Below, in pieces: positions 10,581-61,602 of a DNA stretch of 64,000 nucleotides. The first letter of the stretch is position 1, and each line of letters starts with the position of its first letter. The notes below the pieces were generated by a model. That model saw only the letters and a list, made by a program, of their open reading frames with translations. It had not been told where the DNA came from and ran no database searches. The translations under genes and the position numbers were made by a program. The stretch is from Beroe forskalii (Eukaryota > Ctenophora > Nuda > Beroida > Beroidae): NCBI GenBank assembly GCA_011033025.1, contig WFMF01000138.1:1-64000 (forward strand), given 5' to 3'.

Positions 10581-10982
10581 CAGTCACCAGACCCTACACC
10601 TTCATTGAGTTCGGTTAGTCACCAGACCCTACACCTTCATTGAGTTCGGTTAGTCACCAGACCCTACACCTTCATTGAGTTCGGTTAGTCACCAGACCCT
10701 ACACCTTCATTGAGCTCAGTTAGTCACCAGACCCTACACCTTCATTGAGTTCGGTTAGTCACCAGACCCTACACCTTCATTGAGTTCGGTTAGTCACCAG
10801 ACCCTACACCTTCATTGAGTTCGGTTAGTCACCAGACCCTACACCTTCATTGAGTTCGGTTAGTTACCAGACCCTACACCTTCATTGAGTTCGGTTAGTT
10901 ACCAGCTCAGACCCTACACCTTCATTGAGTTCGGTTAGCTTCCAGACCCTACACCTTCATTGAGTTCGGTTAGCCACCAGAT
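10581..10982 (+). repeat. 35-bp minisatellite made from a SEC22 exon end and 5' splice site
   Basis: Eleven near-identical 35-bp units. Each contains AGACCCTACACCTTCATTG, AGTTCG and then GTTAGT. Read in frame this is R-P-Y-T-F-I-E-F followed by a phase-1 splice donor, the conserved RPYxFIEF segment that ends the longin part of SEC22 proteins. Reading through the donor gives an immediate in-frame TAG, so only splicing at a unit boundary makes sense. The first unit (exon end 10613) is the best candidate for the true exon; the others are intronic copies. The AGTC in the exon and in the GTTAGTC of the intron start form a short homology at which the duplication could have begun. Confidence 0.85.
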
Positions 10983-13900
10983 TAGATAGATACCAGTATT
11001 TATATCACCTATACACCTTGTGCAACGTTGTGGCGCCTATTAACTCTGCCTTACGAAATAGATTTACATTGATCAATAATTCCGGGGATCGAAATTTTTG
11101 GGGAACGAAATTTTGGGATTTTTTTGGAAATATTACGCATGTTAATGTTTGATGATGGCGTCATATTGATATTTTGTGGGGAACGAAAATATGGGGATTT
11201 TTTTTGAAAAATCCCCAAATTGCGAATGTTATATATTTGTCTCGTAAGGTAGTTAAGCTGGTGACATGACATTGTGATAATGAACTTGTACTGCGAGAAA
11301 AATTAGAAAATGATAAACTAGGAAACGAAGGTTGCGGGCCTTTGAAATATATAGGTAGCAATACCAAAGCACGTAATAGAGTAACTATTATTTGACACCT
11401 AGTAAGCTAGTACCTGTATTATGATATGTTCACTAATATATGCATTAGTTCAGCATTATGCCTCTGCATTTATTCGCATATTACTGGGATACAAGAAGCT
11501 GCGTTTATCTCGCGTGTTTCGTAACGGATTCCTATAAATTGAGTGTGAGGAAAGCTGGAGTAGCACTGAGTATTCTGTGTGTTCTGCCTTCATTTTGTGC
11601 GTTGTGTACGAAAATCTAAGTAATAAGTTGGATTAGTTGATTATGAAAAATCTGTTTAATCTGTTTAATAAATCTGTTTAATAAATAATCCCGAACCACC
11701 AAATAATCGAGCCACCAAATAATCGAGTGCTTCGTACACTGTAAAGTGTAAACTGTATAGTGCTGTGTACGCTGTACTGACATATAGTTTTCAAGTGTAT
11801 ATCAGTGTATCGTGAATCGTCCCGTCTTCATTTTTCTCAATTTGTTGCGGAGTAAAGTATTGATCCGTTTGATGATCAGTATGAGAGAAGGTAAGACATG
11901 TAAAGATGCATATAGAAAAGGTGCGCGAAGGGATCTATTTCAGATAGAATCATGCGTTGTGGGTTCTATCTGATAGAAGTTCGCACAGAGCACGAAGTTT
12001 CATTCTTTGTGTAATCCCGAGACGAAGTCGAGAGGGATTGCATTTTAATAATAGATCTGAGACCCTCGTGTCTTCTGTCTATGTATTTAAACTTTTACAA
12101 TCTTTGCGCAATATTGTGATATTAAGAGTGATCCCTTAAAGTCTTTATCTGCCACATCAAGAACCTGCTGATTATTGACAGGCAAATACTATTAAGCAGT
12201 CAAAATGTAATAATACAATAAGTGTACATTACTACCATTTAACAGTTCACTCCATTTCAGAGACTACAATACGTCACAGTTCACTACATTTAAGAGACTA
12301 CTATAGTACTATATAAAATAAATAAATGTGAACCATTTGTTAAACGCCTTATAGCTTAAATAGGATTCAAAATTTTTAAAGATTAACCCAAAAATCAAAT
12401 CCTGCTCTCTAAAGCGTCTCATAAAATTTACTTTCAATCAATGTCATGTGAATATGCACATAAAAATCTCCTGGCTGTAAATCGTTAGAACATAACACTT
12501 TAATAGTATTTCAATGTTAAAATTATGAAAGCATATTTCAAGCAAATTACAAGCATATTTCAATCATAAATCACAGTTCACTCCTTTTCAGAGACTACAA
12601 TACGGAAGTTGATGAAGTCCTATACGGACAGCAGATCACCCAAACAACTTAGTAAGATTAATAACGAACTGGCGGATGTACAGAGGATAATGGTTCAGAA
12701 CATTGAGGACGTGATCCAGAGGGGCGAGCAACTCAGTGGTATGTGATATCGTCATTCACTTGATCATTACAGTGCGTTTTGGTACGTTTGACTGGGCGTG
12801 CTCAGGACATCTGTGTCGTGCGCGTCTACTTCCAGCTCAGCGATGAGTTCAGTAAACGACCGAGTTCAGGTTCTTAGCCGAGGCCGAGTTTGCATCGTTA
12901 AGGCCGGAGCCGAGGCCGAGACCGAGGCCGAGGCCGAGTTCATATAACTTTCGTGAAGCTACAATGTTATATTGCCATAATTTTCTGTAAAACTATTTTA
13001 AAAGAATCTTTTGGCCTTTTGTCGATTCTATCGGTTAAATTTGATAAATTTCTTATGCTAAATTTTAATCTATAGAAAATTTTAGCTTGTTTGACCCTAA
13101 AATTCAGCCTGTGTTTTGAAATGGCACATAAAATTCTGGCGATTAGCTAGGTATCAAACTCGGCAAAATGAAGCAAAATTTGGCCGAGACCGAGGACGAG
13201 TTTGAAAAAAGGGCCGATTTTGACCGAGGCCGAGTACTCGGTCGTTTACTGGATGAGTTGTTGTTCACAGCAGTGTACCCCAGAACAGGAGGTCTATCTT
13301 GGAACTCCTTAAGGAACTTGCCCAAACCGATCTTGAAGCTATCGAGTATAGCCTCTATATACTGTAGTTTTAAAACGGTGATATATCAATAATTATCACA
13401 CCCTAATTTTATCCACAGGAGGCTGACAATGAGCCCTCGATATCAATCCGCCACGGCTCAGTGATTACACAATATTTTCGTCACAATTGGCAAATTTTAC
13501 GTCGCGTCGACGTACGCAGCGGCGACTCATTTTTAACACTACTTGCGCTTAATTTGCGCGCATGGGCTAAATTTGCGCGCGCTGCAACATCATTTATTGA
13601 GTCGTGGCAAATTTCGAAAAACGATACGTCATTTTAATTTTAACGTTTAATTGGATTACCTCTGAGCTCATGCAGTGATTTGAGATGCCACGTAAATCGA
13701 GTTTTATTTCACGAGCATTTCAAATTGATGTTAGATTTGAGGGTTTTATTTGGTTCATTATTATGACATTTCTCCTAATCAATCAAACCCATCAATGATC
13801 AAAACACCAAAAACCTTTCACCGCATATCCCATTATAATTTCAGTGCTCGATAACAAAGCAAACAACCTCTCGATGATGTCGCAACAGTACAAGAAAGAG

Positions 13901-15640: not shown

Positions 15641-15646
15641 ATGAAG

Positions 15647-21779: not shown

Positions 21780-24385
21780 TAGGTACCTTTTTGAACACCA
21801 GCTGCACCAACCAATTATGGGTACCTTTGTGAACCACCAGTTACAGTAACCAATTATGGGTACCTTTCTGAACCACCAGTTACACCAACCATTAATGTGT
21901 ATCTTTCTGAACCACCAGTTACACTAAAAATTATGGGTACCTTTCTGAGCCACCAGTTTCGCCAACCTATTATGGGTACCTTTTTCTAACATTCAGTTAC
22001 ACCAATCAATTATGGGTACCTTTCTGAACCACCAGTTACACCAACTAATTATGGGTACCTTTCTGAACCACCACTTATGCTAACCAATTATGGGTACCTT
22101 TCTGAACCACCAGATACACTAATCAATTAAGGGTACCTTTATGAACCACCAGTTGCACTCACCAATTATGGGTACCTTTCTAAGCCACCAGTTACACCAA
22201 CTAATTATGGGTACCTTTCTGAACCACCAGTTACACTAAGCAATTATGGGTACCTTTCTGAACCACCAGTTACACTAACAATTTATGGGTACCCTTTTGA
22301 ACCACCTGTTACACTAAATAATTATGGGTACCTTTCTAAAGTCTGAACAACCAGTTACACTAACCAATTATGGGTACCTTTCTGAGCCACCAGTTACACT
22401 AACCAATTATGAGTACCTTTCTGAACCACCAGTTACACTAACAAATTATGGGTACCCTTTTGAACGACCAGTTTCACTAAACAATTATGGGTACCTTTCT
22501 GAACCAACAGTTACACCAACCAATTATGGGTACCTTTCTAAAGTCTGAACCACCAGTTACACTAACCAATTATGGGTACCTTTCTGAGCCACCAGTTACA
22601 CCAACTAATTATGGGTACCTATCTGAACCACCAGTTACACTAAACAATTATGGGTACAGTTCTGAACCACCAGTTACACCAACCAATTATGGGTACCTTT
22701 CTGAACCACCAGTTACACCAACCAATTATGGGTACCTTTCTAAAGTCTGAACAACCAGTTACACTAACCAATTATGGGTACCTTTCTGAGCCACCAGTTA
22801 CACCAACTAATTATGGGTACCTTTCTGAACCACCAGTTACACTAACAAATTATGGGTACCTTTCTGAACCACCAGTTACACTAACAAATTATGGGTACCC
22901 TTTTGAACGACCAGTTTCACTAAACAATTATGGGTACCTTTCTGAACCAACAGTTACACCAACCAATTATGGGTACCTTTCTAAAGTCTGAACCACCAGT
23001 TACACCAACCAATTATGGGTGCATTTCTGAACCACCAGTTACACTAAGCAATTATGGGTACCTTCCAATAACCAGTTACACCAGTTACCAATTATGGGTA
23101 CTTTTCTGAACCACCAGTTACACCAACCAATTATGGGTACCTTTTTGAACCACCAGTTACACCAATCAATTATGGGTACCTTTTTGAACCACCAGTTACA
23201 CCAACCAATTATGGGTACCTTTCAATAACCAGTTACCAATTATGGGTACCTTTCTGAACCACTAGTTACACCAACCAATTATGGGTACCTTTTTGAACCA
23301 CCAGTTAAACCAACCAATTATGGGTACCCTTCTGAACCACCAGTTACACTAAGCAATTATGGGAACCTTTCAATAACCAGTTACACCAGTTACCAATTAT
23401 GGGTACTTTTCTGAACCACCAGTTACACCAACCAATTATGGGTACCTTTTTGAACCACCAGTTACACCAACCAATTATGGGTACCTTATCGAACCACCAG
23501 TTACACCAAACAATTATGGGTACCTTTCAATAACCAGTTACACCAGTAACCAATTACGGGTCCCTTTCTGAACCACCACTTACACCAACCAATTATGGGT
23601 ACCTTTTTGAACCACCAGTTACAATAACCAATTATGGGTACCTTTCTGAGCCACCAGTTTCGCCACCAATTACACCAACCAATTATGGGTACCTTTCTGA
23701 ACTACCAGTTACAATAACCAATTATGGGTACCTTTCTGAGCCACCAGTTTCGCCACAAATTACACCAACCAATTATGGGTACCTTTCTGAACCACCAGTA
23801 ACACTAACAATTATGGGTACTTTTCTGAACCACCAGGTAAACTAAACAATTATGGGTACCTTTCCGAACCACCAGTTACACTAAACAATTATGGGTACCT
23901 TTCTGAACCACCAGTTACACTAACCAATTAAGGGTACCTTTCTGAACCACCAGTTACACTAACCAACTATGGGTACCTTCCTGAACCACCAGTTACGCCA
24001 ACCAATTATAGGTACCTTTTCGAACAACCAGTTACACAAAGCAATTATGGGTACTTTTCTGAACCACCAGTTACACTAAACAATTATGGGTACCTTTCTG
24101 AACCACCAGTTACACTAACCAATTATGGGTACCTTTCTGAACCACCAGTTACACCAACCAATCATGGGTACCTTTCTGAAATACCAGTTACAATAACCAA
24201 TTATGGGTACCTTTCTGAGCCACCAGTTACATCAACCAATTATGGTTACCTTTCTCAACCACCAGTTACACTAAACAATTATGGGTACCTTTCTGAACCA
24301 CCAGTTACAATGAGCAATTATGGGTACCTTTTCGAACCACCAGTTACACTGAGCAATTATGGGTACCTTTTCGAAGAGCCAGGTA
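21780..24385. repeat. 38-40-bp minisatellite carrying a splice-donor-like core
   Basis: About 65 units of consensus ATTATGGGTACCTTTCTGAA followed by CCACCAGTTACACTAACCA. On the minus strand, the coding strand of the transposase, every unit reads TTCAGAAAG then GTACCC. This matches the end of the upstream transposase segment, CCGAAAG then GTACCT at about 24657-24663. The array thus looks like an amplified 5' splice-site region inside an intron of the transposase gene. Confidence 0.85.
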
Positions 24386-29514: not shown

Positions 29515-32500
29515 TCAGTCCTGTTTTATGAAAACGCGAGGTCTAGAAAATATCTTGACAGCATCGTCAATTTCAGCGAGTTTTCCCTCCAATTCATTCC
29601 GTGTGTTATGAAGTCGCAGTGTGTCGTTTCGAAGGGGTAGATTCTGGAGTTGGTCTAACAGCTTGTCTTTGCCTGAGAAAGCGGGCAGTTAGACTATAAA
29701 ATTCTTCATAAAATCTAAAAGTTGTAGATATTAATTATTTGTTTGCAAGAGTAGATCTGAGAGCAGATTTCTGCTATCTGACGCCTACTTTTTATTAACT
29801 ATTAAGTTCTCAGGATTTAAAACGGACCATTCTACATGAAATTGTGATCATTATGCAATTATGTACCTGAAAACCTCCGTTGTCATTAGTGATAAGTACA
29901 TAAGTTCAGGTATTATACACTAATTGATACGCGTATGTAAATGAGATAATAGTATAAGCTTTGAACTAAAGGAAAGGCTTGTTTGTAGCCTTGTATCGTA
30001 GCAACCTAATTAGCATATATCAAACGCACTGTTTTGTATCCTTAAATAAATGATAGTGATATCCGAAGATACAATCAGGAATTGTTTGAAATTTTCAATA
30101 AAGAGTAGAAAACTTTTATGAAAATTATGATGTAAGTCGGGCGACACTCTGACACCACTCGACTCTTACACCACTCCACTCTCACACCATTCCACTCTAG
30201 CCCTTGTCAACCTCGGTTCTTAACACCAATTTACTCTGATACCACCTCAATCTGAATCTGACGCCAGTTTTCTCTGAAACCACCCCACTCTGACACCACT
30301 CAACTCTGACACCACTCAACTCTGACACCACTCTACTCTGACACCGCCCTTCTCTGACACCACTCCACTCTGACACCACCCTTCTCTGACACCACTCTAA
30401 TCTGACACCACTCCACTCTGACACCACCCTTCTCTGACACCACTCTACTCTGACACCACACCACTGACACCAATCAACTCTGACACCACTCCACTCTAAC
30501 ACCACTCAACTCTGACACCACTCCACTCTGACACCACTCAACTCTGACACCACTCTACTCCGACACCCCTCCACTCTGACACCACTTCACATCAGACACC
30601 ACTCCACTCTGACACCCCTGACATCGGACACCACTAAAAAACTCACTTCTCAGCAGGATGGCAAGTGTTTCCTCTTTCTCCTTCTTGTCCATAACAACAT
30701 GCCCAGGAGGAACTGTAGGATCAGGCATACTGGCTATCCTCTTTTCTTCCTCCTCCTTCCACTGCTTTACCCGTTCTTGCAGGCTGATAATTAAAATGTT
30801 ACTCTAATTTTCATAAATACCACATTTGTTGTCGGTGTAAGAGCCTAACCTGCCAAACTCAGTGAATTTCCTTGCTAAAAATCATGTAGTTCCTGCTCTT
30901 GCAGGCCGAGAAGTGTTATAAAAATGGATGTTTACCGTTATTGAGACGTTTAGTTTTGAGCACATATCGTCATAATACGATGTAAGTTACATGATAAACA
31001 CGAGAGGCTGCTGTAGTGTTTCTAACGTGCATGTTACATGATTAGACTGAGCGTTCAGTGCAACGGTATTTTTCAATCAGGTAATTGATGAAAGAAAGTG
31101 CATCACACACCTCTAAAAACAGAACAATCGCGAGATAAACATTTCATGCAACAGAAAATATTCAGTTGCAATTCAGGATAAGGGTGCTGGTGGGATCTTT
31201 CACTGCGCAAAGGTGGTAAAGGTGGATAAAATGATATATTTCTCTATCTGTGAGGGCCCAGATTAATTATGTCTCAATGTATTTGTCATGCATGAGTACG
31301 AGCGAGAGAAAATATCATGTGGTATAAAATGTTATAATATTAGCACCTAAATGAGTTTGACAAACCGTTAACGTAACCGTAACCGACGTTCGATAAGTCA
31401 AGTAAACGGAACCGAAACCGGACTTTTCAAAAATTGGAACCGGTCGTTTCTTTTTTACTTTTTTAGCGGGCTTATGACCTATAAAGTATAATTATAAAAT
31501 AATTTGCTGCTATGGGCACGTTTAAAAGCCTTTTTAATAGTCAGGAGCACGACTACAAGCACGATTAAAAGCCCCATTTAAAGCACTCACTAGTCCGGGA
31601 CGGTCCCCCTCTGATAGCACTTGGTAGCTTCCTCCTTCTTTTTAGCCGCCCTGGCATCTTCCACCTTCATCGGATCCACTCGGATGGGGGCAGCCTTCGC
31701 TTTACGCGCGTTCTCCGCTATGAAGTTACGCTTCAGACACGACTGAAGGAGTAGAAGAGTGCAGAATACAGCCAATTCTCAATACATTGAAGGAACATTG
31801 CATTTACATCGAATGTACATTAATTGATGTATATTGTACATTCAATACTTACTCGAAATTGACTGAGGAGTGAGGTCGAATAATCGCAACAAAGTTTTGT
31901 AACTATAATACCATTTATCAGAAACAACAAACAATAAAACTAGGTTACATTCTGTTTGACAAAAAGTGAACATGAAGATTTACAATTTGAACCCAACTAA
32001 CGTCAGACGCTGATCTTTTGATGGGTGCTGATGAAGGTCGTTTTCCTGCCGACCCAGGTCGTTTTTCTGCCGTCCCAGGTCGTTTTTCTGCCGTCCCTGG
32101 TCGTTTGTTGGCAGAACCCGGACGAGAACCAGGTCCATACGTCGTGTCCTGGAACAAAATAATGAAATAATGGGTGGGGAATTTTGGAAAGGCAAAGCAA
32201 TTACTGAACTTCAGTAAACTGAAGCGTAAAGATTATGTCACTAGAAGACTTGCAGAGATGGTCACCAGAATGGCATAGGAGAAACCAGAATTAATCAAAA
32301 TGATCAAGATGATATCAAGATGAATCATGCAAATTCATCAGTCCAGGAAAACAATAACAGTCCTTCCACACTTACCATCCACTGCTTGAGACGGCTTTCC
32401 GTCCGTTCGTATTTACTGCTTTTCCAAAGCGGCTTGTTTTCTGTGCTGGTCAAAACCTTCTTCTGACCCTCCTTCTCCTTTTTCTTCATCCTGTTGTAGT

Positions 32501-40391: not shown

Positions 40392-40493
40392 GCAGGATAC
40401 AAACAGTGGTGAAAACCAGTACCAACATGAAGTGGATGCATGTGTGACAAAGACTTTTTTGGAGAGACAAATTTACATTCGTACTTTGATAAC

Positions 40494-40499
40494 ATTAAA
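40494..40499 (+). terminator. Polyadenylation signal, coiled-coil gene
   Basis: ATTAAA about 100 bp after the stop codon at 40391, a common variant signal at the expected distance. Confidence 0.5.
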
Positions 40500-40704
40500 A
40501 GTTTTTGAAAATGAAAAAGTTTATACAAATTACAAACTACAAAGTTTTCCGTTTCGTTTTTATTTCAAGCTACGAATATTGTGAACTTGAGGCATGGTTC
40601 GAATTCAATTATCAATCAATTTCATTACTTCAAAGCATCATACTTTCATTTTGTTTAAAACTAATACTATGACCATTGAATTATATATTCGTGTAATATA
40701 TAAT

Positions 40705-41870
40705 TGTAGTTGTACCCCGACTGGTTCCAGACTCGGGTGTCGGAAATTGCAGTGGTGTCAGACTTGAGAGTCTGGTACCACTTTCCTCTGATTTGTGACC
40801 CAGAAAAAGTGGTGGGAATGGTTGATCGGAGTTTGACACCACTAAACCACTTCACTTCAGGGAAAATGTTGTCACAACTTAGACTTTAGAGTCTGACACC
40901 ACTTTATTTTGGCTCAGGAAAAGTGGTGTCAGAGTCTGACACAACTTTGGCACTCTACTTTGGCTCATAAAAGTGGTGTCTGAGTCTGAGACCACTTTCC
41001 TTTGGCTAATAAAAAGTGATATCAGAGTCTGAACTCTGACATCACTTTTTTCTTAGCAAAAGGAAAGAGGATTCAGATTCAGACACCACTTTTATGAGCC
41101 AAAGTAAAGTGCCAAAGTGGTTTCAGACTCTGATTTTGACACCACTTTTTCTGATCCCAAGTAAAGTGGTGTCAGACTCTGACATTACTTAACAGTAACT
41201 CTGTCTCACAAAAAGTGGTGTCAGACTCTAACATCACTAAACTCTGTCTCACAAAAAGTGGTGTCAGACTCTGACATCACTTTTTCTGAGCCAAAATAAT
41301 GTAGTGTCAGACGTTCACACCACTGCATTCTGTCTCAGAAAAAGTGGGTCAGCGTCGGGCACCATTTTTCTTAACCAAAGGAGAGTGGTTTCAGACTCTG
41401 CAGACATCACTTTTTCTGAGCCCAAGTAAAGTGGCCTGTCAACTCAGACTCTGAAATCACTTAACTCGTCTCAAAAAGAGTGGTGTCAGACTCTGACATC
41501 ACTTTTTCTGAGCCAAAATAAAGTGATGTCACTCTCAGACGCTAACATGACCACTGCATTCAGTCTCAGAAAAAGTGGTGTCAGAGTTGGACATCACTTT
41601 TCTAGGTCAGAGAGATGTCACATTCCGACACCTCTTTTAATACCTTGTCAGATGTTGTCAGACCCCTTCGGCGGGCGTGGGCGCGTCTGCCGAAATTTAA
41701 CTGAAATAATGGACAGACAACTTCTGACAATCTTTACCTTGGCCCAGAAAAAGTGGTGTCACATTCTGACATTACTAAACAGAAACTCTGCCTCAGAAAA
41801 TGGTGAGATTCTGGCACCTCTCTTTCTAGGACAGAGTGAAGTCATGTCACAATCACACCACTTACAAGGT
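40705..41870. repeat. Palindromic array of AGTGGTGTCAGA / TCTGACACCACT
   Basis: At least twenty copies of AAAGTGGTGTCAGACTCTGA and its inverse TCTGACACCACTTT alternate, joined by short spacers with TGAGCCAAA or TCTCAGAAA. Each neighbouring pair can fold into a hairpin. The region lies just downstream of the coiled-coil gene. One more pair continues at 42060-42110 after the inserted MITE. Confidence 0.8.
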
Positions 41871-41873
41871 TTA

Positions 41874-42050
41874 GGGATCGTTCATATATTACGTAATCAA
41901 CGAGGGGGAGGGGGGTTTCCAAATGATTACGTTACAATGTTATTGTGACAAATACATGTTATTGTGACAAATACAACTACTGTAAACTTGACTACGAGGG
42001 GGAGGGGTAAAATCGGCCAAAAATTGATTACGTAATATGTGAATGATCCC
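41874..42050. mobile_element. 177-bp MITE, GGGATCGTTCA ends
   Basis: Inverted ends GGGATCGTTCATATATTACG / CGTAATATGTGAATGATCCC. TTA flanks both sides (41871-41873, 42051-42053). A longer direct repeat TTACAAGGTT at 41862-41871 and 42051-42060 leaves open whether the true duplication is 3 bp or 9-10 bp. The interior has AGGGGGAGGGG twice. Same family at 63840-64000 and a remnant near 49655-49755. Confidence 0.85.
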
Positions 42051-42110
42051 TTACAAGGTTGTAAAACCTTGAAAGTGATGTCACTGTCAGAGTCGGTGGT
42101 ATTCTTACAG

Positions 42111-43521
42111 TATCAGATCCTTTTTTTCATGATATATGTATTGGGCTGTCCAAGTGAAACAATTGACTTTTGTAAATAAAATTGTTGCTTATCACGTAAT
42201 AAAACAATGTTTTTACATTTAAAATGCACAAAATTGTATTTTAAAGTGAAATCGAAATGGAGTAAAACGTATCAATAAACTCTGGCTATAATGATCGAAA
42301 ATTAGAAGTCGACTTTAAATTGACTGAGACACAACTTCCTTGTTTAGCAAAAATTGCTCAAATATGTAAATACATCAATTGAACTATTGAAGGCATGTTA
42401 ATCATCAAGAATTAAACTTTGAAGAGTATTATTGAGGCTTATAACATGATAGATTGATTAATTTATACAATTTTTCGATAGTTTGATTATTAAAATCAAA
42501 TGGTAAACTGTAACTATTGAATATTTAATACTCATACAAAACGCGATAAAGGAAAATGTGGAGCCATCCAAATTCCAATCGAAAATATCATATGGGATCT
42601 ATGATTGAAATCTTTATTTAAGCTTTTAAGAACGTTCATATTCGTTAGTAGATTTACTATTAATTAGGTTCAAGTAAAAATATAATTTCAATATCATAAA
42701 ATTATTTCAAATTCAAATAAAACCAAAAACCTAAACTCACTTACAATTTTCAACTCTCAACCCAAAATTAAACTATTGCTCATCTTTCAACATTAAGTCA
42801 CATACATCAGCTTTGAAAAACAAAATCATATAAATTTCAGTTAAAATAATTTATCCATAGGGTATTTCTAATAAAAGTGTAGTAGAGAATATGGACACTG
42901 ATTCACGACTTTTCTTAGTACGCTTTATGAACAACCAAATCCCATCTGAAATCAAGCTTCACAATATCATCATTGGTAGTCCTTAGAGTTAGACCGAAAA
43001 ACCTAAATGAAAAGTGGCTTATGATAATATTTATTGAAGTTTTTGGTAACTGATGATTCCGTGTTACTACCTTACTGCCACAGGCATCCCGCCATAAGTA
43101 GATAAGTGCATTTTAATCGAAATTTATAAATGATAAGATAAAAATCGATCTCAACCAGTTTCTCTGCCACGTTATTCCAAGGTAATTCAGGGAAATACTT
43201 ACGGAAAGTTACTGGTTAGTAGCCAGGAACTTGAAATAGAGAATTTGAAACCATAAGGTTGCGCGCACCATATACCGATACGTGCGCGATTGCACGTCGA
43301 ATCAGTATCACGTACGTAAAATGGTGCGCGCGTGGAAATTTCAGATTCATTCTAGAATATCACGACATGTCATGTGTTTACAGGACACTTGTCGGTTACC
43401 GACCGGTAATTTTCCGGGTGTTTTTCACAAAATCACCAATTATTCCAACAATATTAAACGTCTTATACGACTGTACACTGTACAGTCCATGTATATTAAA
43501 AGCTACTCCTCACCACACCCT
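42111..43521. other. Intergenic between convergent gene ends
   Basis: AT-rich spacer between the coiled-coil gene (+) and vinculin (-). It should hold the vinculin 3' UTR; TTTATT at about 43032 (AATAAA on the minus strand) is a possible signal. A 73-bp hairpin lies at 43260-43332. No gene seen. Confidence 0.45.
43260..43332. repeat. 73-bp inverted repeat, GC-rich ends
   Basis: TGCGCGCACCAT at left and ATGGTGCGCGCG at right, with CG-rich loop sequence. Could be a very small MITE or a structural hairpin; no target duplication is clear. Confidence 0.45.
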
Positions 43522-46500
43522 CTATCGACCCCGGCGCTTGAACTGGAGGTTGGTGGCGGGGTTACTCAACATCTTAACAGAGCACGCCTCACTAGCCCGT
43601 ACTGTATCCCGGACACTCTTCATCAGATTCTGTGCGTTGATGGTGAGCATCTCGTCAGCTTCTACTTCAGCTTGCTCGTCTGAAGGAGGGAGAGAGGGGG
43701 TGTGAAAAAAGGGTTTAGAAAACGTGTTTTTTCGTTTGTTGTTTAAAAGGGTGATTGCTTATGTCACCCTGGTGATCAGGATCACCTGTAGCAGGGAGTC
43801 TGGGTAGGAAGAAAGAGGGTTTAGAAGGGTGATTGCTTATATGTCACCCTGGTGATCAGGAACACCTGTAACAGGAGATCCTGCACCGGGTATTCTGGGA
43901 AGGGGGAAAGAGGGAGGGTGAGACTCTTGATATACTCTGACGATACAAGACTTCTGATTTAAACGTAATCAAAGATAGCGGTCCATGCCACTTGGGGGTC
44001 CCCCACTTGATTTCTGTCAGACAGAAATCATTTTCTATGGATCGCCCTTCAGCCAGCAATTCGAGTCCCTAATTTGACCAAACAGAGGCTGTCATAAAAA
44101 AATCTGATCTCAACCAAACAATTAATAAAGTGATATACTCACTGTATTTTCCGGAGGCAGCAGCCTTCACGGAGGCGATGATGTTCAGCTGCTGGGACAG
44201 CATGCCCATTGGCTCCATGCTGTTACCCAGACTCAGGACCAGTCTCTTGTCGGGGCAGTTCTTACTGATCATATCTGGGAATAGGCATTTTATGATACCT
44301 TCGATTTGGTCAAACAGCAGTTAGTTCGATTAATTTCTGCACAATTGTCAAACAATTTAGGGAAAGGTATTCCTGTTTTTCCTAAAATTTACCCTCTAAG
44401 ACGATATTTTTTCACACAAACTACCACGAAATCACCACAAAAACTACTGAAGATTTAAGATATCAAACTTCCACCCACCGGCGTGTTTCTGGATGTTCTT
44501 GGTAAGAGCTATGATTTCCTTACACGTTTTGATCATGTCCGTCATTGAGCTGAACTCAGACTTCTCCCTGACGAGAAATTATTTAGATAAAGGTTTGATT
44601 TAGTAATGCCCGAGGAAATATCTATATCCCTTGCGTGAAAAAACAAAAGTTTATTTACACCCCAACATAGTTTTATAGGTGGTCATTGAATAGGATGAAG
44701 GCTCTGCCCCTGAAAATGCTTCATTTCAAAACATCTTCCCAGTATGAAATGCTAATAATATTCCAATAGTGGTGCTGGAAACTTCATAATCTTCCTGTGC
44801 TGGTACGAAAAAATCTACACATAGAAATCATGGAAAAGCCGACGTTTGGAGAAAACGGCTATGGAGGAAATTAGTGGAAATTCCGAACTTTTGATACTTT
44901 AATGTACATTAGAGAGAATATTTTCTGGAAACAAACCAGGAGAAAAGACATGACAAAAATTTTAAGCAATATTGCACAATGAAGGAGACATCACAGTGGA
45001 CAAGCATGACTGTAGCTGATATATAAGCAAAAATCCAACAAAAACATACACAGCTGATATTTACTGACAATAACTGAACAACAAATAAACTTTAAAAACA
45101 GAACTGACAAAAACAACAACAACCTAAAAACAGCAATCATAACAATATTAACCTTGAACGTGACAGCAAAAAATCGACAATCAATTATAAATGAGATTCT
45201 AAGCCCCGTAATCCTATAATACTCCTAGCTAAAAGAATACGGCATAATACCCCTCCAATCCGCTAATAGTAATACGGTTGCGGGCAGCACTACTGACAGC
45301 AATTTCAGGGAGTTCAACCCAAAATTCAACGGTTAATTTTAACAACTCTCAGCCTTTTACGTTCCCTCAATCCTGCAACTTACACACATACATGCAGTAC
45401 CAGCCAGTCATGCACACATAGAATTCACGAAAACAGAGAACTTTAAACAATTCATTAGATTTATACTGGTTAGGCATGGTGTGTTAAATCAAATCTCAAT
45501 CCCAGGCCATTCATATGGGGTAAAACTTTCACACTTCATAGGCAACCGGAAAGAGAACTCCAATGATTGGAATGGAGGATTCAATTAACACGCCAAGCAA
45601 GAAAACCAGAATATTTGGATATGTAATCTATTAAATAAATCATGACTGATGGCCAAATCTTCCTCGCATTCACACTTTCCTTAAAAACTTCTTAACACAT
45701 AAATTTTTGGGGGAAAAAGTTCAGTGATTGAGTTCTTGGATCAATGATTATAAAATTAATAATATGAATTTTGTGCTCTCTGTCACTCACGGTGGTCTGG
45801 GTGCTGGGTCACTACCAGTATTATCCCTTGGTTTGACGAGGGTTAAAATGGGTAACAAAGCAAAGTGTATAGCAGCAAATATAGCTCGGCAAAACATGTG
45901 GCAGAATGAATATATTTGAGCAAATAATGATTTTTAGAAGAAGAACCATAATAAATACTCACTCAGTGGCTCCGAGATCTAGCAACTCTCGTCTACCTTT
46001 GAAAGGAATAAATTTAAGATCGCGCAATGAAGGACGCATTTGAGAGTAACGCCAGTGTGATAAGATATGCCTTTGCTATGAATTATTTGAGAAATCCTTG
46101 TTCTACAATGTTTGACAGCCTCCTCCTAGTTCACATACTTGGTGTACTTTGCCATCTGCTGGAACTTCTGGGCTATCTTCCTGGCTGCAGTGATCATATC
46201 ATTGTCCTCCTCCATGTACTTGGCTGTCTCCTGTCTCAGCTTGAATGCTGCGTGCTGAGAAGATGCAGCTTTTCAAACACAAGGATTTCTTTTGGATTAA
46301 TGGAATATGTCCGGGCGAAGTTTGTCGTATGATTCAAGGGAAAATGCTACAAGGTGAAACTGATATATGGCTGTACAAAATACATGATACACATAAATTC
46401 TTCATCTGAAAGAAAGTTTGTTATTTATGACATAGTGACATACATCAAACTTTATTCAAATTCAAACGGCTGCAAAGTGATTACAAATTTCTGTCAGGAA

Positions 46501-49500
46501 ATGACTCAGAGATAAGTTTCAAATGATCGCTCTGTTCAGTTGATGTCAAAGATGAATCTCGAGTCAAAAGCTCAAAGAGTGAACAGCAGTGAAAATTCAC
46601 ATCACAAGATGAAATGAACAGAATACACCTACTAACCCTAATTTGTTCACCTAAACTTCCCCAGTCCTGCAATTACTAGACAGTTATAGAAATCACTACA
46701 TATTGTATTTTCATGTGGTCAGGAGACCGAAAATGCCATAAATCCCATAAGTCTAAGAAGCACTCCAGAGACAGAATTGAACGAAGTTTGCAAGCTCAAT
46801 GGAGAATTTCACCAAAAATATTACAAATGTTGCAACTTCATCATCTCCGAACGTGTCTAACAAGCTGCTCATTACCTCAATTGGAGCTTGAACAGGGTCA
46901 GGAGCAGGGGCCGTCGCATCAAAGCTGTCTTCCTCCTCGTCTGAGTCCACGGGAACAGGGGGTCTGATGAGGGAAAGAGTAGTGGTACTGGCGATAAAAT
47001 AGCGTCAAACCAGCGATAACATCGCGGTAAACCAGCGATAACACGGCGATGAACTGGAGTCAACATGGCGCTTACTGCTTAAGTGTTACATGCTAAACCA
47101 GCGTTATTCTTGCCATTAGACTGCTGTCAAGCCTGACAGTTATTCTCATCGCCTTATCGATATTCTCATCGCCCAATTTAAGTCCATGAGATACTAGAAG
47201 ACAATGATAATAATGAAGACGATGACAATGAAGGTTCCCTAAAGTACCTAGCAGGGGGAGTGTCATCTTCCTCAAGGGGAGGGGGAATGTCTTCTGGTAG
47301 GGGAGGAAGGGGCAGGTAGAACCCGATCATTTCATCCTTAATACGACTGATGTTCATATGCACCTGGAAGGTTCATCAGCGATATTAGAGAATGTAGGTC
47401 TTGGTTTATTCGGCAGAAGAGGACTTGTTCACGCATTTCAAATGCTTCGGCGCAATTAAACTCGTGTCAATCGTGGTCTCATGAAATCACAGATTTTCTC
47501 AAAAGCAGAGAGCTTCTCAAATTCCAAACGCGTGTGCTCAACTTTATTTTGGTACATCAGTTACTAATCAATATATCAATGAGAAAAACGTCAAGTTCTA
47601 CCTCAGTGATTGATTTGTCGAAGGCTTTAGGATCCGAGGCTTTCCCCTGAATGTGAGCGTTGGTAGCCACTCCAGCCATCTTTATTGCTGAAACAAAAAC
47701 AATATAATATATCTAGAAACCGTCAAATAGAACAAAAATACCAATGCTTGTCTCCTTACATATATTAGTAATATTATTCAAAGGTTCGGTAAAAATTGTG
47801 AGAGTTGTCAATTCTGGGTCCTATAGCTCTGTTTAGTTTCGTAATTCATGGGTTATTTAGTCGGAATTATCACTGTGAATATAACATGCTTATTGCCCAG
47901 CAATCAGCATAGCGACAACTTAGCACCTAATTTCTCCAAGTAAAAGAGTTTCTAATGTTTAACGCTTTCTTTCCCACCGAGTTCACTTCTCGTAAAATCT
48001 TACAAATAAATTGCTTTGTGATTTGTGGCTTACTTTCTGAGAGTTTTCTGTCTACTATAAGTAAACTTCGAATATCGTAACTTCGTAAAATCTTGCAAAT
48101 AATAACGTTTTGATTTGTAAAGTTGTAACTTACTTTGTATGATGTAGTAGTCCACTTCGATATGTATGGCACAAACAACAGGCCCAGACCCGCCCATAAT
48201 TAAGCAAAATATACAAAACCAGCGTGGCAAAACTTGTAAATCGCACGACAAATTATTAGGACAAGAATTATATTTTCTTTTTTAACAAGTTCGAGAAGAC
48301 AAACGCATACGAAAACGCTCTGACATTTCTATGAATGGCATTAATAGTAAAAATGTATTTCCTTAATTATGTCGATATTTGCATGTTTAATTGGGCGTAT
48401 AGTTATGTGAAGTGTTAATTACAGACCTTGACAGTGCAGATATAGTCAGTAATTCAACGCCCAGATATCACGGACGCACGAAAATAATTAAATGAGCTTT
48501 TTCATCCCAAAGCACACACAGACTGAAAATTCCTGAACCATTGAACTTTTCTTTAAGTTTTATACTATTTATATACATCTCGGCTGCACTACAGCATTCC
48601 AGAGCGGGCCATTGTATGGCTTTAGATAGCAGGTTCTAGATAGAAGACAGTCTGAGAAGGTCCTTGTTTATTGGATCAAACGTAAAATGAGGGGTGCTCT
48701 GGAACGCGAAGAAGATATTAAACTTTACTACAAATATGAAAGTATAAAGAATGAAGATATGCATATATTATGATGGAACGCACATGCAATTCAAGTGTCT
48801 CATGAAACAAAACATTAAACCCCGTGCATAATGTGTAAAAATTACACAAAACGCCGTACATTTTTCCATGTTAGTTTAATGGTCTAAAGATAATATGTTG
48901 AAACGTAGAATTACGAGCGTCTGAAAAGAAGCATGAACCGTACAACTAATACAAAACACCGTACAAATAATACAAAACACCGTACAAATAATACAAAACA
49001 CCGTACAAAGCACCGTACCTTTTTCCAGGTTAGCTCTATGGTCGAGCAACTTCACTTTGTACTGGGATTCCCCGACGTTTTCCAGCTCAGCATCCGTTAC
49101 TTCCAGGACTCTGTTGGTAATCTTCTGAACTGTTGCCACCTTTACTACTGCTTCCTTCTGCGAGAGGTGGAGGGGTGAGAGTGAGCCAAAGGTGACGTCA
49201 TTATCGGGGTAAAAAATGGGAAATTGATGGCGTTTAAAGTGCCTATTTTCTTTTTGTGATACCAAGAGGTGGTTTCTATTCAAGATACGTAGAGGTGGTT
49301 GGGAAGTGTGTTAACAGAATGTCTGAAATAATGGCTCCTTTTTTAAAGTTTGTTAAACATACACAAAATAACCATGTGTATTATGGTTAAATTACGAAGT
49401 GTATGCATAAATATTTCTCTTTTGTGTTTGAGTTGTGTCTGATTCGGTATACATGACATTGCATCGCTAGTCGGACTTGATTGATAAAAACGGGCCATAA

Positions 49501-50659
49501 CAAAGAAATTTTCACATTATTTAATCATACTGAATTTAGTGTTTGGGAATGGGGCGATGATATCATCATGAAATAGGGAACCCGTAATGATTTGAGAATT
49601 TTAAAAGTTCAGTGGAAAAGGATGGGTTCCCTTTTACGAAGCCCAAAGGGGGGATTTAAAGGGGTTTTTTGATTACCCAAAAATTTTTTCAAGATAAACA
49701 GATAATTGTAAACTTGACTACGGGGGCGGAGGTTCAAAAATATGTGAACGATCCCTAGTATTCATATGCGGTTTGTAATCCATAAATATTATAAGATTTA
49801 AGTTGTTTTCTTTAATCCATGGACTCTTACCGGGCTGCTCTTCATCAGAGATCGTGCTGCATCTCCTTCCTCCTTTACTTTCCTCTCAGACTCAACCAAA
49901 AAGTCTGAGGAAAAAATGATGAAACCTCCCTCTCCACTCAACAAGTACTAAAAACAACAATTATAACGGAGGGTAGGTGTAGACACGAAAATTCCGTAGG
50001 TGCAGACAGTTCAAATTGTGCGGTTAAATATCACAACAAAAAAGAAATACAAGTTAAGTTCTGTGGAATTATTTGATCTGAAAACAGCGAGTTTTGCTGC
50101 AGAGCATGACAAGATGAACGTGATCTGAGTATGTTTTTTGTAACTAAATAGGAAAAAACTCTACCGCATGGTGTTTATGCCAAAGTTACGCCTAATAACT
50201 TGAGCGTGCACACTGAGACACTGTATACAGTACAGTAGTGTCATTGAGATCAAATGCATAAGTTGAGGCATGTTGGTATACTATAATACTGGAGCATATT
50301 AAAGTTGGTTAAATTTTTACGGACATGTTGCTGTATCCTCCTTGATTGGAACTGTTACTGCGTTTCCCAATCTTCAAAAAAGATGTGGGAAAGAATGAAA
50401 GATAAGAACTGTCTGAAAAGGAACTACGGGACAATGCTCTTTTTATTCAACCTGTTCTTTCGACCTACATTTGGACGATTTGCTTTTGACCCATAAGCAC
50501 ACATGCGTATTAGCCTACAGGGAAAACAAGTAGTACATTAAGGCGACTTAATAAGGTTTATTTACCGGTAGGTTTGACACACTTATCCACGTCTGATCTC
50601 AAACGGACTGCCTCAGTTACCCACTGCTGCTTCACCAGATCGAAGTTTTCTTTTGCACT
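43522..50659 (-). CDS. VCL: Vinculin, C-terminal third
   Basis: Vinculin links adhesion complexes to F-actin. Ten exons, complement: 50659-50566, 49904-49831, 49157-49019, 47687-47602, 47363-47248, 46963-46876, 46254-46139, 44567-44479, 44274-44143, 43679-43522. All phases agree; 363 residues. They cover the last head helices (KENFDLVKQQWVTEAVRLRS; VQKITNRVLEVTDAELENVG), a Pro-rich acidic hinge (LPPLPEDIPPPLEEDDTPP, then DSDEEED), and the five-helix tail (DNDMITAARKIAQKF; NCPDKRLV; TINAQNLMKSVRDTVRASEA). NAQNLM and the hinge favour vinculin over alpha-catenin. The protein ends NLQFKRRGR; the vertebrate C-terminal hairpin ending in an aromatic TPWYQ is absent. No FPPPP VASP site is seen in the hinge. 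Exons for the first two thirds are missing beyond the assembly gap at 50677. Confidence 0.9.
43740..43910. repeat. Duplicated intron segment beside the last vinculin exon
   Basis: A block containing GTGATTGCTTATGTCACCCT, GGTGATCAGGA and CACCTGTAGCAGG is present twice (about 43748 and 43828). On the minus strand each copy has a pyrimidine-rich run ending in CAG, resembling the true acceptor at 43680. Confidence 0.65.
44600..46138. other. Vinculin intron, 1.57 kb
   Basis: AT-rich sequence with simple A-rich stretches (45040-45180). No exon or element recognised. Confidence 0.5.
47688..48930. other. Vinculin intron, part
   Basis: Intron between the exons at 49157-49019 and 47687-47602. A direct repeat occurs at 47995-48015 and 48085-48105 (TCGTAAAATCTTaCAAATAA-like), with matching sequence either side. 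No gene recognised. Confidence 0.45.
48940..49018 (-). repeat. 21-bp repeat of the vinculin 5' splice site
   Basis: Directly after the exon end at 49019, the donor GTACGGTG is repeated on the minus strand as four units of about 21 bp, GTACGGTGTTTTGTATTATTT. The true junction is GAAAAAG then GTACGGTG; the copies follow TTT instead of the exon bases. Confidence 0.85.
49655..49755. mobile_element. Remnant of the GGGATCGTTCA MITE family
   Basis: TGTAAACTTGACTACGGGGG and ATATGTGAACGATCCC match the right half of the MITE at 41874-42050; the left half is degraded. Lies in a vinculin intron. Confidence 0.65.
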
Positions 50660-50676
50660 CTGAAAAAGGCAGCAGC

Positions 50677-59100: not shown

Positions 59101-61602
59101 TTTCTAGGAACTTGTCAATCCAGCTGTCTTATGAATTGATGCAAATTATATCCTTGTGTTTGGAGATTAGGGTCGGAGTGGCCAGTAAAACTTTGCCAGT
59201 ATCAAGCTTTTATGGGCTTTTCAAGCTCTAACCGAGGTTAAAAAATCTCGAATTTCAGGTATATTTGCAGCTGTTTAAAACTAGGTAATTTTTAAAACGA
59301 AATTGAGAATGGAGACACTTAGGTGTATAATAACCCTTCCAGGGTCGTTAAAGCGACCATTTAGGCAGAATACCAGTGCAAGCTAGCAGTCCTCTGACCG
59401 CCCCTCGGCAGCAGTCCATGTTCATAAACAGAGGACCATGGTGCATGTCAAGGGCTAAAACGCTATTAAGATCCAAGAAAAACATTTCCTTGCGTTTCAA
59501 AATTTACCCTTTAAGATACTGCTTTACCAGGAAAACCATGTGTCCATGTAAGTTGCGGTAAACGGTCGCCACTTCCATATGTAACCGCTTAATTTGAAGC
59601 TGCAGTCAGCAGATGCGATTCCCTTTAACAGAGTTTAGGAGTTACTAAAGCAAATACCGACATTCTTGTAGCTGCAAGAATGTTCCGTTTGAGACTCAAA
59701 TATTAACTGTAACCTACCATGGTTAATCCAGGTGGCTTCATGAACAAAGCAAATTATATCCTTGTGCTTGGAATTAAGGGTTGAAGTCATCAAATTTTAC
59801 CAATATCAACCTTCCATTGGCGTTTGAGGCTCCAATCGAGGTTATGGAAGTTGAAATTTCAGATTTGCAGCTCTTTAAAAGCAGACAATTTCTTAGAAGA
59901 CAATTTGTACGCCGATCCTTTGAAAATATTATTCAATTCTCATAATTAAACTTAAATATCCCTGATCAGTTATCCTTACTTTACCCTTACCGTACAACCA
60001 TGTAATCAACTAATCAAATTTTAGATAATTTCTCGCTCTCTCTTCTACTTTTTAATCCTATCCGACATGATTTGCCACTTCTTTTTCTCCTTTTCGGTTT
60101 AATTTGCTCTTCGGCTCAAAATTCGTCGTCCAAACTCTTCCTAATTATGCCTGACTTCATCCTTTTATCGCGTTGTGGGGGGTCCGAAAATGACAGATTG
60201 CTCAGAGCACATTTCTAAGTCTTTTAACTTTTCAATCTTATTTCCTAAATCTCGAATTTCGATGAAAAAAGATATATTATCCTGTATTTATCAGGTTGTC
60301 ATTTCCGAGTTTTCATGCTTACACTGCACCTCAAATCAGTGGCCTAGTCCTAAGATCAAGGCTCTACATTCAGACATCTCCCGTAAATGACCCAACTCTA
60401 ACACCCAGCTTCTTTCAGCCCCTCACCCGAATAACCCAACTCTAACACCCAGCTATTTTCATCCCCTCACCCGAATGACTTGACTCTGACACCCAGCTTC
60501 TTCCAGCCCCTCACCTGAATGACCCAAATCTAATACCCAGCTTCTTTCAGCCCCTCACCCGAATAACTCAACTCTAACACCCAGCTATTTTCAGCCCCTC
60601 ACCCGAATGACCCAACTCTAACACCAAGCTATTTTCAGCCCCTCACCCGAATGACCCAACCTTTAACACCAAGCTTCTTTCAGCCCCTCACCCGAATGAC
60701 CCAACTCTAACACCCAGCTTCTTTCAGCCCCTCACCCGAATGACCCAACTGTAACACCCAGCTTCTTTCAGCCCCTCACCCGAATGACCCAACTCTAACA
60801 CCCAGCTATTTTCAGCCCCTCACCCGAATGACCCAACTCGAACACCCAGCTATTTTCAGCCCCTCACCCGAATGACCCAACTCTGACGAAGTACTTGCAC
60901 CACTCACAGCGAAACCTGACAATGATCTCGCACACTGATGACAGACCGCACACTGCACCCAGCTCAATGAAATACAGGTCTGGATTGATTAATGTTGTTG
61001 AAAGAATTTGATGTGAAACTTAGTGAAATTTAGAGAAAAATTAAGGTAGTAAAAATACCAGTAGAAAATCATAAAAGATTAAAATTGAACTGAAATTACA
61101 CTGATTTAGCTAAATTCTCCTTGTAATCAGGGCCTGGAAAAAGTCGAAGAGCCAAGGGAGCATTGAAGTCGGGGAAACGAACAAGGAATCATCTGAGGCT
61201 ACCGGTGAGCATTTGGAATGGAGATAATCTATTTTTTGTTTTGTTTATAGTTCCTAAGTCCTTGTGATTTTTGAAAAGAAGCAAAAAACGACCAAAAAAA
61301 CTGACCCGTCGCGTCCCTGTATTTCTTGATTCTGATTTATGCCACCTCATTTTGCTGTGTTATGCTTTACTGACATCCTATCGATTGCAGGAGAAACTGA
61401 GCCCTCCCGACCTACCAGTGGGCGGAGCGTAACGTTCAACGGAACGGATCAGATCGTGGAACAGAACGGAGAGGTGGATACTGCACCTAGCAGTGGGGAT
61501 ACCGCACCTAGCAGTGGGGATACTAGAGATACTCCACCTACTGGTGGTGATACCGGGGATACCGCACCTGTAGAGGCGGTGTCAGAGGGGACTGCATCTT
61601 AG
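53182..61602 (+). CDS. Unidentified gene, 3' seven exons
   Basis: Exons 53182-53256, 53413-53527, 54245-54344, 58368-58486, 60860-60977, 61131-61204, 61391-61602 (stop TAG). Every border is GT-AG and every phase agrees, giving 270 residues. The first half is folded-looking (LREWLKREIPSAMLFSFDH; CMSKIVSRIKNVALG), followed by NCGRCGQHVPLPDR, which has a CxxC pair. The second half is disordered: HTAPSSMKYRAWKKSKSQ, then SRPTSGRSVTFNG and an acidic Thr/Gly/Asp tail with DTAPSSG and DTPPTGGDTG units. I do not recognise the family. The 5' exons are upstream of 53182, perhaps in the doubtful sequence or the gap. The long third intron (4.0 kb) holds a transposon, and the fifth exon's acceptor lies in the last unit of a 44-bp minisatellite. 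Confidence 0.75.
54973..57199. mobile_element. 2.2-kb motif-decorated transposon (CTCAACCAnnGTGGAG)
   Basis: Inverted ends TGGTCATGTTGAAAGCTGTC (left) and GACAGCTTTCAACATGACCA (right). Inside are about 18 copies of CTCAACCA, one to three bases, then GTGGAG. Copies in the left half are forward (about 55152, 55311, 55457, 55612, 55766, 55916, 56082). In the right half they are mostly inverted, as CTCCACATGGTTGAG (about 56221, 56394, 56533, 56727, 56872). No transposase frame, so it is non-autonomous. It sits in an intron of the unidentified gene. Target duplication not resolved. Confidence 0.75.
57200..57510. repeat. 45-bp tandem repeat with 90-bp dimer
   Basis: About six units starting TTGGTGACAGAACC. 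Units ending in CTGTGACAAAAACAGCATCAA-like sequence alternate with units having CTTGAAAAAATACAGCATC, giving a 90-bp dimer. The array starts at the right end of the transposon (GACCATTGG) and may have grown from its flank. Confidence 0.8.
57511..58367. other. Intron sequence
   Basis: Intron of the unidentified gene. TTGACACCACT occurs at about 57650 and 57705, the same core seen in the repeats at 30.2 and 40.7 kb. No exon recognised. Confidence 0.4.
58948..59290. repeat. Dispersed repeat, copy 1
   Basis: About 340 bp starting GAAGCTGCAATCAGCAATGC and including TTAGGAG/CTAGGAGTTACTAAAGCA and TTATATCCTTGTG. It is repeated in the same direction at 59595-59900. The two copies have diverged considerably. 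Confidence 0.7.
59595..59900. repeat. Dispersed repeat, copy 2
   Basis: Same orientation as copy 1 at 58948-59290, starting GAAGCTGCAGTCAGCAGATG. The segment between the copies is unrelated. Could be two members of a short interspersed family; no A/B box was found. Confidence 0.7.
60386..60865 (+). repeat. 44-bp minisatellite made from a 3' splice site and exon start
   Basis: About eleven units, CCCCTCACCCGAATGACC, CAACTCTAACACCCAGC, TTCTTTCAG. The last unit ends in TATTTTCAG at 60859 and runs on as the exon CCCCTCACCCGAATGACCC, AACTCTGACG. Each unit thus carries a pyrimidine tract, AG and the first 25 exon bases. Confidence 0.87.

Follow-up and report, generated by a model that had tools for sequence, protein, structure and literature searches.

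Tandem arrays in the window

The window analysed is a 64,000-nucleotide stretch of Beroe forskalii DNA (contig WFMF01000138.1, positions 1 to 64,000) that contains SEC22, ENKD1 and vinculin genes, a coiled-coil gene, a proposed MULE transposon gene and a possible further exon near its right end. A sequence-only reading had described six minisatellites that start at exon-intron borders in this region, and all six arrays were recovered by Tandem Repeats Finder (TRF).

TRF and sequence reading place the SEC22 array at 10582..10981 (plus strand), where a 35-bp unit is repeated 11 times. Each unit comprises an exon end (VTRPYTFIEF-G) followed by the donor GTTAGT, and the protein joined across the array intron aligns collinearly with the PDB entry for SEC22b (E 4e-18). 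The exon after this intron (12591..12743, plus strand) was detected by tblastn (E 3.8e-14) and matches Pfam Synaptobrevin. The unit therefore holds the junction as proposed. The left flank (10150..10584, plus strand), however, is the end of a dispersed, transposon-type repeat, so that the array begins at a transposon end. Scoring 40 of 989 candidates placed this repeat at no fewer than 39 other sites (87-100% identity), every match stopping at query base 432-441. Using tblastn, no convincing match to human SEC22 residues 26-105 was found at the locus; genome-wide, the sole match overlapping these residues is a 28% match on contig C164 that covers residues 69-188.

The ENKD1 junction array (32959..35096, minus strand; TRF, sequence and edge reading) contains about 50 copies of a 43-bp unit composed of the last 15 nt of the exon and the first 28 nt of the intron with its donor GTCAGT, GCAAACCTAGACCCG/GTCAGTTCC... 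The exon that ends at the array (AETAPPNPRVRPEAEDIAEHHKGCVQNLLADASSKPRP-G; 35082..35229, upstream limit approximate, minus strand) aligns weakly with human ENKD1 (tblastn E 0.075), and the exon that follows the array intron (32376..32543, minus strand) was predicted by the gene finder and aligns with E 1.3e-4. Pieces of the human protein align in order, the weak piece at the array exon falling in sequence with the stronger exons, and the C-terminal exons match Pfam Enkurin. The TRF result, the reading of the unit and the ordered matches fully bear out the earlier description of this array. A second, degenerate-looking ENKD1 copy on contig C159 also carries the array; the 40 of 702 candidates scored for the other ENKD1 flank included no full-length second copy. 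A further ENKD1 array, left out of the earlier description, comprises 23 copies of a 16-bp unit (30272..30635, minus strand; TRF and sequence). It starts 11 nt inside the intron that follows exon 30647-30783 (donor GTGAGT), its unit is devoid of the junction, and it belongs to a dispersed minisatellite family of the TGACACCA type.

The coiled-coil and vinculin arrays lie within a segment (36019..50672) that is present twice on the contig by sequence comparison, the second copy spanning 80263-97758. The exons of the two copies differ at 21 synonymous and 4 nonsynonymous positions, and the doubled segment probably represents two haplotypes placed side by side. The vinculin-gene array (48937..49009, minus strand; TRF and sequence) had been read as four 21-bp units at a donor. 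It consists of 3.5 copies of GTACGGTGTTTTGTATTATTT and starts 9 nt into the intron that follows the donor AAAAAG/GTACGG at 49018. Its units repeat GTACGGTG, with exon sequence absent, and an array of equal length occupies the second copy (95878-95950). The exons downstream match Pfam Vinculin. The 20-bp array of the coiled-coil gene (unit CTCTAGGTGGGAACTAAAAA; 36195..36421, plus strand; TRF and sequence), a gene that yields no Pfam match, is likewise real, but its first unit lies 20 nt inside the intron that opens with the proposed donor GTAGGT. This donor is missing from the second copy, which makes the junction uncertain. The array has 9.8 copies here vs 7.8 in the second copy.

At 60386..60884 (plus strand; TRF and sequence), 11 copies of a 44-bp unit include TTTCAG/CCCCTCACCCG, as reported for a putative acceptor. 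A possible exon after the array ends at 60977 and, by reading, is phase-compatible with a gene-finder exon at 61131-61204, although the junction is uncertain. No full-length second copy of this locus was found in the genome search. The array of the proposed MULE gene (21782..24370, minus strand; TRF and sequence), with 65 copies of a 39-bp unit that includes AAAG/GTACC, had been described as starting at a donor. It ends at 24370, about 290 bp from the proposed AAAG/GTACC site at 24656-24660, and hence is not at the border. No Pfam match supports the MULE identity.

Junction arrays beyond the window

An additional 220 kb of the same contig, unseen in the sequence-only reading, contains five arrays that have a splice junction within their repeat unit: MSH6, the virilizer donor, the virilizer acceptor (tentative), SNX5/32 and PSMA6. 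The MSH6 donor array extends over 3.1 kb with about 129 copies of a 24-bp unit. The exon, which ends at 217759, reads ...CTPGMRQWWEIK/GTGAGG and is followed by the 24-bp units and then by the exon SEYFD...; the joined protein aligns with human MSH6 with no gaps (E 3.7e-23). Another copy on contig C286 matches in exon, donor and initial units but differs in intron length, about 980 vs about 3,330 bp.

The exon at the SNX5/32 acceptor array shows homology with E 4.6e-52, the alignments beginning 4 to 11 residues past the acceptor, and that at the PSMA6 acceptor array aligns with E 1.1e-15 from 5 residues past the acceptor. At the virilizer donor array, the Pfam VIR_N match reaches 3 residues before the exon end, and the first donor copy reads ACGAGT rather than GT. 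The virilizer acceptor junction is a tentative assignment, predicted by the gene finder at one setting and not at others.

Thus, the 284 kb include six junction-containing arrays supported by homology plus a tentative seventh. Protein homology backs the splice join itself in MSH6 and SEC22; in SNX5/32, PSMA6, virilizer (donor) and ENKD1 there is a homologous exon at the junction. The many decoy splice sites noted earlier are real features of the junction-spanning arrays and recur in genes outside the window.

Placement relative to splice junctions

Chance placement had been considered unlikely on the grounds that introns and spacers offer far more room than junctions. This argument was too strong, given the shortness of the predicted introns (median 386 bp), yet a curated count does show an excess at junctions: of 16 arrays located in genes, 7 carry the junction within their unit vs 2.01 expected (P = 7e-4), or 6 (P = 0.0053) when the virilizer acceptor is taken as a miss. 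Outside the window the count is 5 of 10 vs 1.61 expected (P = 0.0065), or 4 of 10 (P = 0.045) with the same array as a miss. By the curated list, which may favour genes recognised through an exon near an array, 10 of 16 arrays fall within 12 bp of a junction vs 2.77 expected.

Uncurated ab initio predictions gave Fisher P = 0.21 (n=11) and, in further runs, 0.098, 0.047, 0.29 and 0.23 (n=15, 36, 17 and 31). Outside the window alone, these tests detected no significant excess (P = 0.43 at the setting of the n=11 run; 0.13 to 0.68 at the others). Applied to collapsed arrays, the gene finder missed the SEC22, ENKD1-43, SNX and 60386 junctions and is therefore weak. Overall, the placement tests range from P = 1e-5 to 0.29, varying with criterion and curation.

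The splice motifs of the units are not stronger than those of dinucleotide shuffles (donors: P = 0.24 in the window, 0.99 outside), and the motif-only unit test was dropped as evidence. Triple AGGTRAGT clusters show no genome-wide enrichment, with 1,452 (718 + 734) vs 4,419 (2,090 + 2,329) in the reversed control, a pattern that does not count arrays because single arrays give dozens of matches and long arrays dominate. Junctions probably attract moderately more arrays than plain intron sequence does, though this is not proved.

Origin of the arrays and alternative explanations

The arrays are probably "mirages", that is, minisatellites whose founding unit derives from a copied exon-intron border and has since multiplied. 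The unit spans this boundary in MSH6, SEC22, ENKD1, SNX5/32, PSMA6 and the virilizer donor array, but not in the vinculin, MULE or ENKD1 16-bp arrays. The units carry splice signals, though these are no stronger than in shuffled units, and the irregular first virilizer donor copy (ACGAGT) also counts against this reading. Array length differs between the copies, presumably alleles, of the MSH6 and coiled-coil arrays and is equal for vinculin. The earlier observation of minisatellites at splice junctions is partly confirmed; arrays that merely lie in introns, including the dispersed TGACACCA-type family, form a separate class.

In the proposed pathway, a short tandem duplication would span a splice site by chance, probably when replication slips or ends are joined at short homologies. 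Selection would presumably tolerate it, as splicing at one true site drops the other copies as intron; by contrast, a duplication that lies inside an exon and breaks the frame would be eliminated. Unequal exchange or slippage could then raise the number to tens to more than 100 copies, similar to VNTR growth, yielding an intron of variable length lined with copies of one splice site, of which one unit would presumably be spliced. Among the causes suggested earlier, slippage gains support from short homologies visible by eye at the edges of two arrays, GCAA (ENKD1) and CACCAGA (SEC22), which is the pattern slippage would leave. Breakage at R-loops is unsupported, as the sense-strand GC skew of the 12 arrays measured spans -0.64 to +0.74. 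Support is also lacking for template switching on spliced RNA, since the junction units inspected are contiguous exon-intron DNA with no exon-exon join seen.

Coincidence in a striking window, in which short introns and abundant repeats overlap as random placement would give, has a minor but real chance of being correct: the short median intron, a single-array chance of up to 0.53 and ab initio tests that are not clearly significant fit it, whereas the five further junction arrays (one tentative) in the 220 kb and the curated P values outside the window, with or without the tentative array, argue against it. True hot spots, at which a feature of transcription or splicing (R-loops, pausing or splice-motif homology) starts duplications at junctions above the rest of the intron, are unlikely. 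The curated excess, both within units and within 12 bp, would agree with such sites, as would the TGAG of the MSH6 donor, of which by eye a further copy lies in the exon 24 nt upstream, a distance of one unit. The inconsistent GC skew, edge homologies in ENKD1 and SEC22 that are not splice motifs, ab initio P values of 0.047 to 0.29 and negative motif tests speak against them. A broader claim, that splice junctions genome-wide are minisatellite birth sites above the plain-intron rate and that many introns contain dozens to more than 100 interchangeable splice sites, is doubtful.

Regulation of splicing by the arrays, with competing identical donors tuning exon ends or expression and length variation mattering, is very unlikely. 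Counting the first donor itself, the MSH6 array region has 73 donors whose strength equals or exceeds that of the first, and by reading its 24-bp unit stays open when translated in the frame of the exon, such that later donors would add eight-residue repeats (VRQWWEIK); however, the ENKD1 (43) and SEC22 (35) units shift the frame, and published amphioxus mirages splice normally (PMC3087553). An assembly artefact, in which repeats were expanded or misplaced, is highly improbable: the window has a 100-N gap (50677-50776) and the doubled segment, but a second contig also carries the MSH6 array, and both copies of the segment contain the coiled-coil and vinculin arrays.

Comparison with known systems

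The kind of array favoured here, the mirage, is already known. In two reports (PMC3087553, PMC3902484), mirages were described gene by gene in lancelets, in amphioxus Adh3, the globins BflGb6/BflGb9, PGBD5 and troponin C, with normal splicing despite decoys, somatic instability and haplotype length differences, and a role in creating new introns was suggested for them. Both this structure and this model of intron gain had been published (PMC3087553), a comparison that the sequence-only reading did not make. The present arrays occur in an animal distantly related to lancelets, probably a non-bilaterian, namely a ctenophore, and are very long and length-variable, with up to about 129 copies and 3 kb per array.

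Other precedents are cited in PMC3087553. In the Rogers 1989 model cited there, as in the present arrays, a duplication crossing the intron-exon boundary supplies splice signals; that model entails a single duplication and a new intron, whereas the arrays described here enlarge existing introns. Zhuo 2007 (introns from tandem arrays in human genes) and Gao and Lynch 2009 (internal duplication tied to intron origin), both as cited in the same source, share the link between tandem repeats and intron origin. Introners (PMC9860276) are also repeated sequences tied to introns, but they are elements that insert their own copies into many genes, whereas the junction units compared here differ from gene to gene: a comparison of 22 selected arrays gave 13 similar pairs, none involving the seven junction units. 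Genome-wide queries with whole arrays covered SEC22, MSH6 and 60386. The SEC22 array has no other array match among the matches listed (40 of 989 candidates scored), the MSH6 array region has weak 69-71% matches on contigs C531 and C459, and the 60386 array has one 67% match.

The six supported cases and one tentative case in 284 kb of a probably non-bilaterian animal suggest that mirages arise generally from small tandem duplications wherever genes are densely packed. An exon followed by up to about 129 near-identical donors provides a natural test of how splicing settles on the true donor, and length differences between copies show how introns can grow. If junctions were birth sites genome-wide, this genome would offer a living test bed for how a spliceosome selects one of many identical sites and for how duplication gives rise to introns.

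Tandem arrays and splice junctions in the window

The window comprises the opening 64 kb of contig C179 in an assembly of 216 Mb. Arrays were listed with Tandem Repeats Finder and their edges were then read in the sequence, while genes were predicted with a Markov coding model and splice matrices trained on the sequence analysed. Further sequence comprised the 220 kb of C179 directly after the window, which was not picked for arrays, and an arbitrarily picked 50-kb stretch of contig C247. All six arrays that the sequence-only reading had placed on splice junctions are present in the Tandem Repeats Finder listing.

The ENKD1 array, proposed to sit on an exon end and its donor, is the cleanest of the six. 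The junction lies inside the 43-bp unit, which combines the exon's last 15 nt with 28 nt of intron (donor GTCAGT) and occurs in ~50 copies. The gene was named with what we take to be the human ENKD1 sequence, pieces of which align in order, weakly at the array exon (E 0.075), and a Pfam Enkurin match lies further along. The 35-bp SEC22 unit also contains, as claimed, an exon end (VTRPYTFIEF-G) and a donor (GTTAGT); joining that exon end to the exon at 12591-12743 yields a protein that is colinear with SEC22b at E 4e-18. However, on its left this array abuts the terminus of a dispersed repeat, found in at least 39 other places among the matches listed, and therefore lacks an intact exon at its border. 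At the locus, SEC22 residues 26-105 had no convincing match, and a genome-wide SEC22 search gave a 28% match on contig C164, covering residues 69-188, that is probably a relative. The SEC22 locus (window 4349-14000) may be broken or misassembled. A 13-bp array (window 4204-4347) abuts the SEC22 start codon (4349) on the upstream side.

The vinculin array repeats the donor-like GTACGGTG, with no exon sequence in its units. The donor proposed for the coiled-coil array is deleted in the second copy. The acceptor junction of the array at 60386, in an unidentified gene, is plausible by phase alone. The MULE array lies ~290 bp from its proposed donor; the identity of the MULE gene had no Pfam confirmation. 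A 36 bp x 47 array (window 15739-17425) lies within a long open frame of 843 codons on the minus strand, and its period, unlike those of the SEC22 and ENKD1 arrays, is divisible by three.

Junction arrays beyond the window

C179 beyond the window contains five arrays with the junction inside the unit. The MSH6 array (24-bp unit, 3.1 kb) follows an exon ending at 217759, in the order exon ...CTPGMRQWWEIK, donor GTGAGG, array, exon SEYFDIILFF..., and the 53 residues obtained by joining the two exons give a gapless alignment to human MSH6 at E 3.7e-23. The array region contains 73 donors as strong as the first or stronger, the first counted in, which agrees with the suggestion of many decoy splice sites beside the true one. 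The first copy of the virilizer donor array (181900-184045, 84-bp unit) reads ACGAGT, and the VIR_N match ends 3 residues short of the exon end. The virilizer acceptor array (190141-190233, 30-bp unit) is tentative: one gene-finder setting places the acceptor inside the unit, other settings place it outside, and the unit can be read through as a coding repeat as well. The acceptor arrays of SNX5/32 (245571-245692, 36-bp unit) and PSMA6 (271334-271623, 54-bp unit) were placed by exon homology, the alignments beginning 4 to 11 and 5 residues past the acceptor, respectively. A further array (185074-185364) begins 5 nt into the intron of an exon named by eye as cysteine-rich and RING-like, for which no Pfam match was found.

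A second class of arrays was evident among 22 selected units compared for similarity. A TGACACCA-like core is common to 30272, 40888, 41163, 64906, 271916 and C247:38320 and is weaker in 185074, with 21782 and 60386 tied to this group by one weak pair each. The members placed in genes (30272, 185074, 271916) are intronic, beside a junction and not on it. The seven junction-containing units were absent from all 13 similar pairs. The dispersed TGACACCA-like family (window 30272-30635 and 40888-41352; C179:64906 and 271916; C247:38320) occupies introns and possibly intergenic sequence.

Length variation

A second MSH6 copy on contig C286 has the same exon and donor, judged from HSP positions and sequence, and the intron after this exon is ~980 bp there versus ~3,330 bp on C179. 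The 15-kb segment at window 36019-50672 is present again ~46 kb apart (C179:80263-97758); a 100-N gap occupies window 50677-50776. Across ten exon pairs 27 of 1,092 nt differ, with 21 synonymous and 4 nonsynonymous differences within whole codons, using the gene finder's frame for four exons open in two frames. Because the exon differences are mostly synonymous, both copies look constrained; most simply, they are the two haplotypes, probably assembled next to each other. Copy numbers in the two segments are 9.8 and 7.8 for the coiled-coil array and 3.5 in both for the vinculin array. High heterozygosity, as described for Hormiphora (PMC8527503), would fit the doubled copies. The fuller of the vinculin gene copies has, within an intron and on the other strand, a single-exon gene that looks transporter-like by eye (C179:113265-114749).

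Junction overlap relative to chance

The argument that chance placement is unlikely had assumed large introns, but the median predicted intron on C179 is 386 bp. In an ab initio test each array was reduced to one unit, placed uniformly across introns, after removal of the arrays at 80-98 kb as second copies. For 11 arrays the Fisher P was 0.21 (window 0.12, outside 0.43); four other settings, with 15, 36, 17 and 31 arrays, gave 0.098, 0.047, 0.29 and 0.23 (outside the window 0.30, 0.13, 0.68 and 0.48).

A curated test used gene models from homology and the gene finder, with some approximate intron lengths, and 16 in-gene arrays, excluding arrays outside recognised genes, periods >100 bp, 60386 and MULE. 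Among the 16, array 214089, for which one setting has a weak acceptor 3 nt away, was scored as a miss. With a 12-bp limit chosen after the fact, 10/16 arrays were at a junction versus 2.77 expected (P = 1e-5; window 4/6, P = 8e-4; outside 6/10, P = 0.0042). The stricter rule, junction inside the unit, gave 7/16 versus 2.01 expected (P = 7e-4; window 2/6, P = 0.052; outside 5/10, P = 0.0065). Scoring the virilizer acceptor array as a miss changed this to 6/16 (P = 0.0053; outside 4/10, P = 0.045), and omitting both it and SEC22 to 5/14 (P = 0.0095). Recognition of genes near arrays may have inflated the curated counts. In 13 arrays of the window and 32 others, the units carried splice motifs no stronger than those of shuffled units, and a genome-wide count of one splice pattern was below its reversed control. 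The excess over chance is thus moderate and unproved, and that junctions are true hot spots is a possible but less likely reading.

Mechanism

The junction units that were read are contiguous exon-intron DNA, and therefore template switching on partly spliced RNA, one of the proposed causes, is unnecessary. Slippage at short homologies, another, would leave shared edges of the kind seen by eye at the outer ends of the ENKD1 (GCAA) and SEC22 (CACCAGA) arrays. GC skew on the sense strand was mixed among 12 arrays. Duplication across a splice site would keep one usable site while the other copies become intron; with the extra copies so absorbed, selection need not remove the duplication.

Mitochondrial code

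In COX1, on a 13,339-bp contig, 4/4 TGA codons align with Trp and 5/7 AGA/AGG codons with Arg of PDB cytochrome oxidase, and CGN codons number 0. This is mitochondrial code 4 and, taken with animal genes such as vinculin, speaks for a non-bilaterian animal, probably a ctenophore. Small mitochondrial DNA and code 4 agree with ctenophores as described in PMC6991124; PMC7687593 gives 10,487 bp for the Beroe cucumis molecule.

Relation to known arrays

Among the open-licence papers listed on ctenophore repeats, introns and splicing, no title or abstract opening mentioned mirages, the amphioxus minisatellites whose unit spans an exon-intron boundary; among the further papers listed, judged in the same way, no other species showed such arrays apart from a single potato duplication. 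The amphioxus reports (PMC3087553; PMC3902484) describe boundary duplications at donors and acceptors, length differences between haplotypes, splicing apparently undisturbed by RT-PCR, and a proposed model of intron gain. The arrays described here have the same structure. The splice-junction arrays of Beroe forskalii are real, were partly misdescribed in the sequence-only reading, and are of a kind already known from amphioxus.
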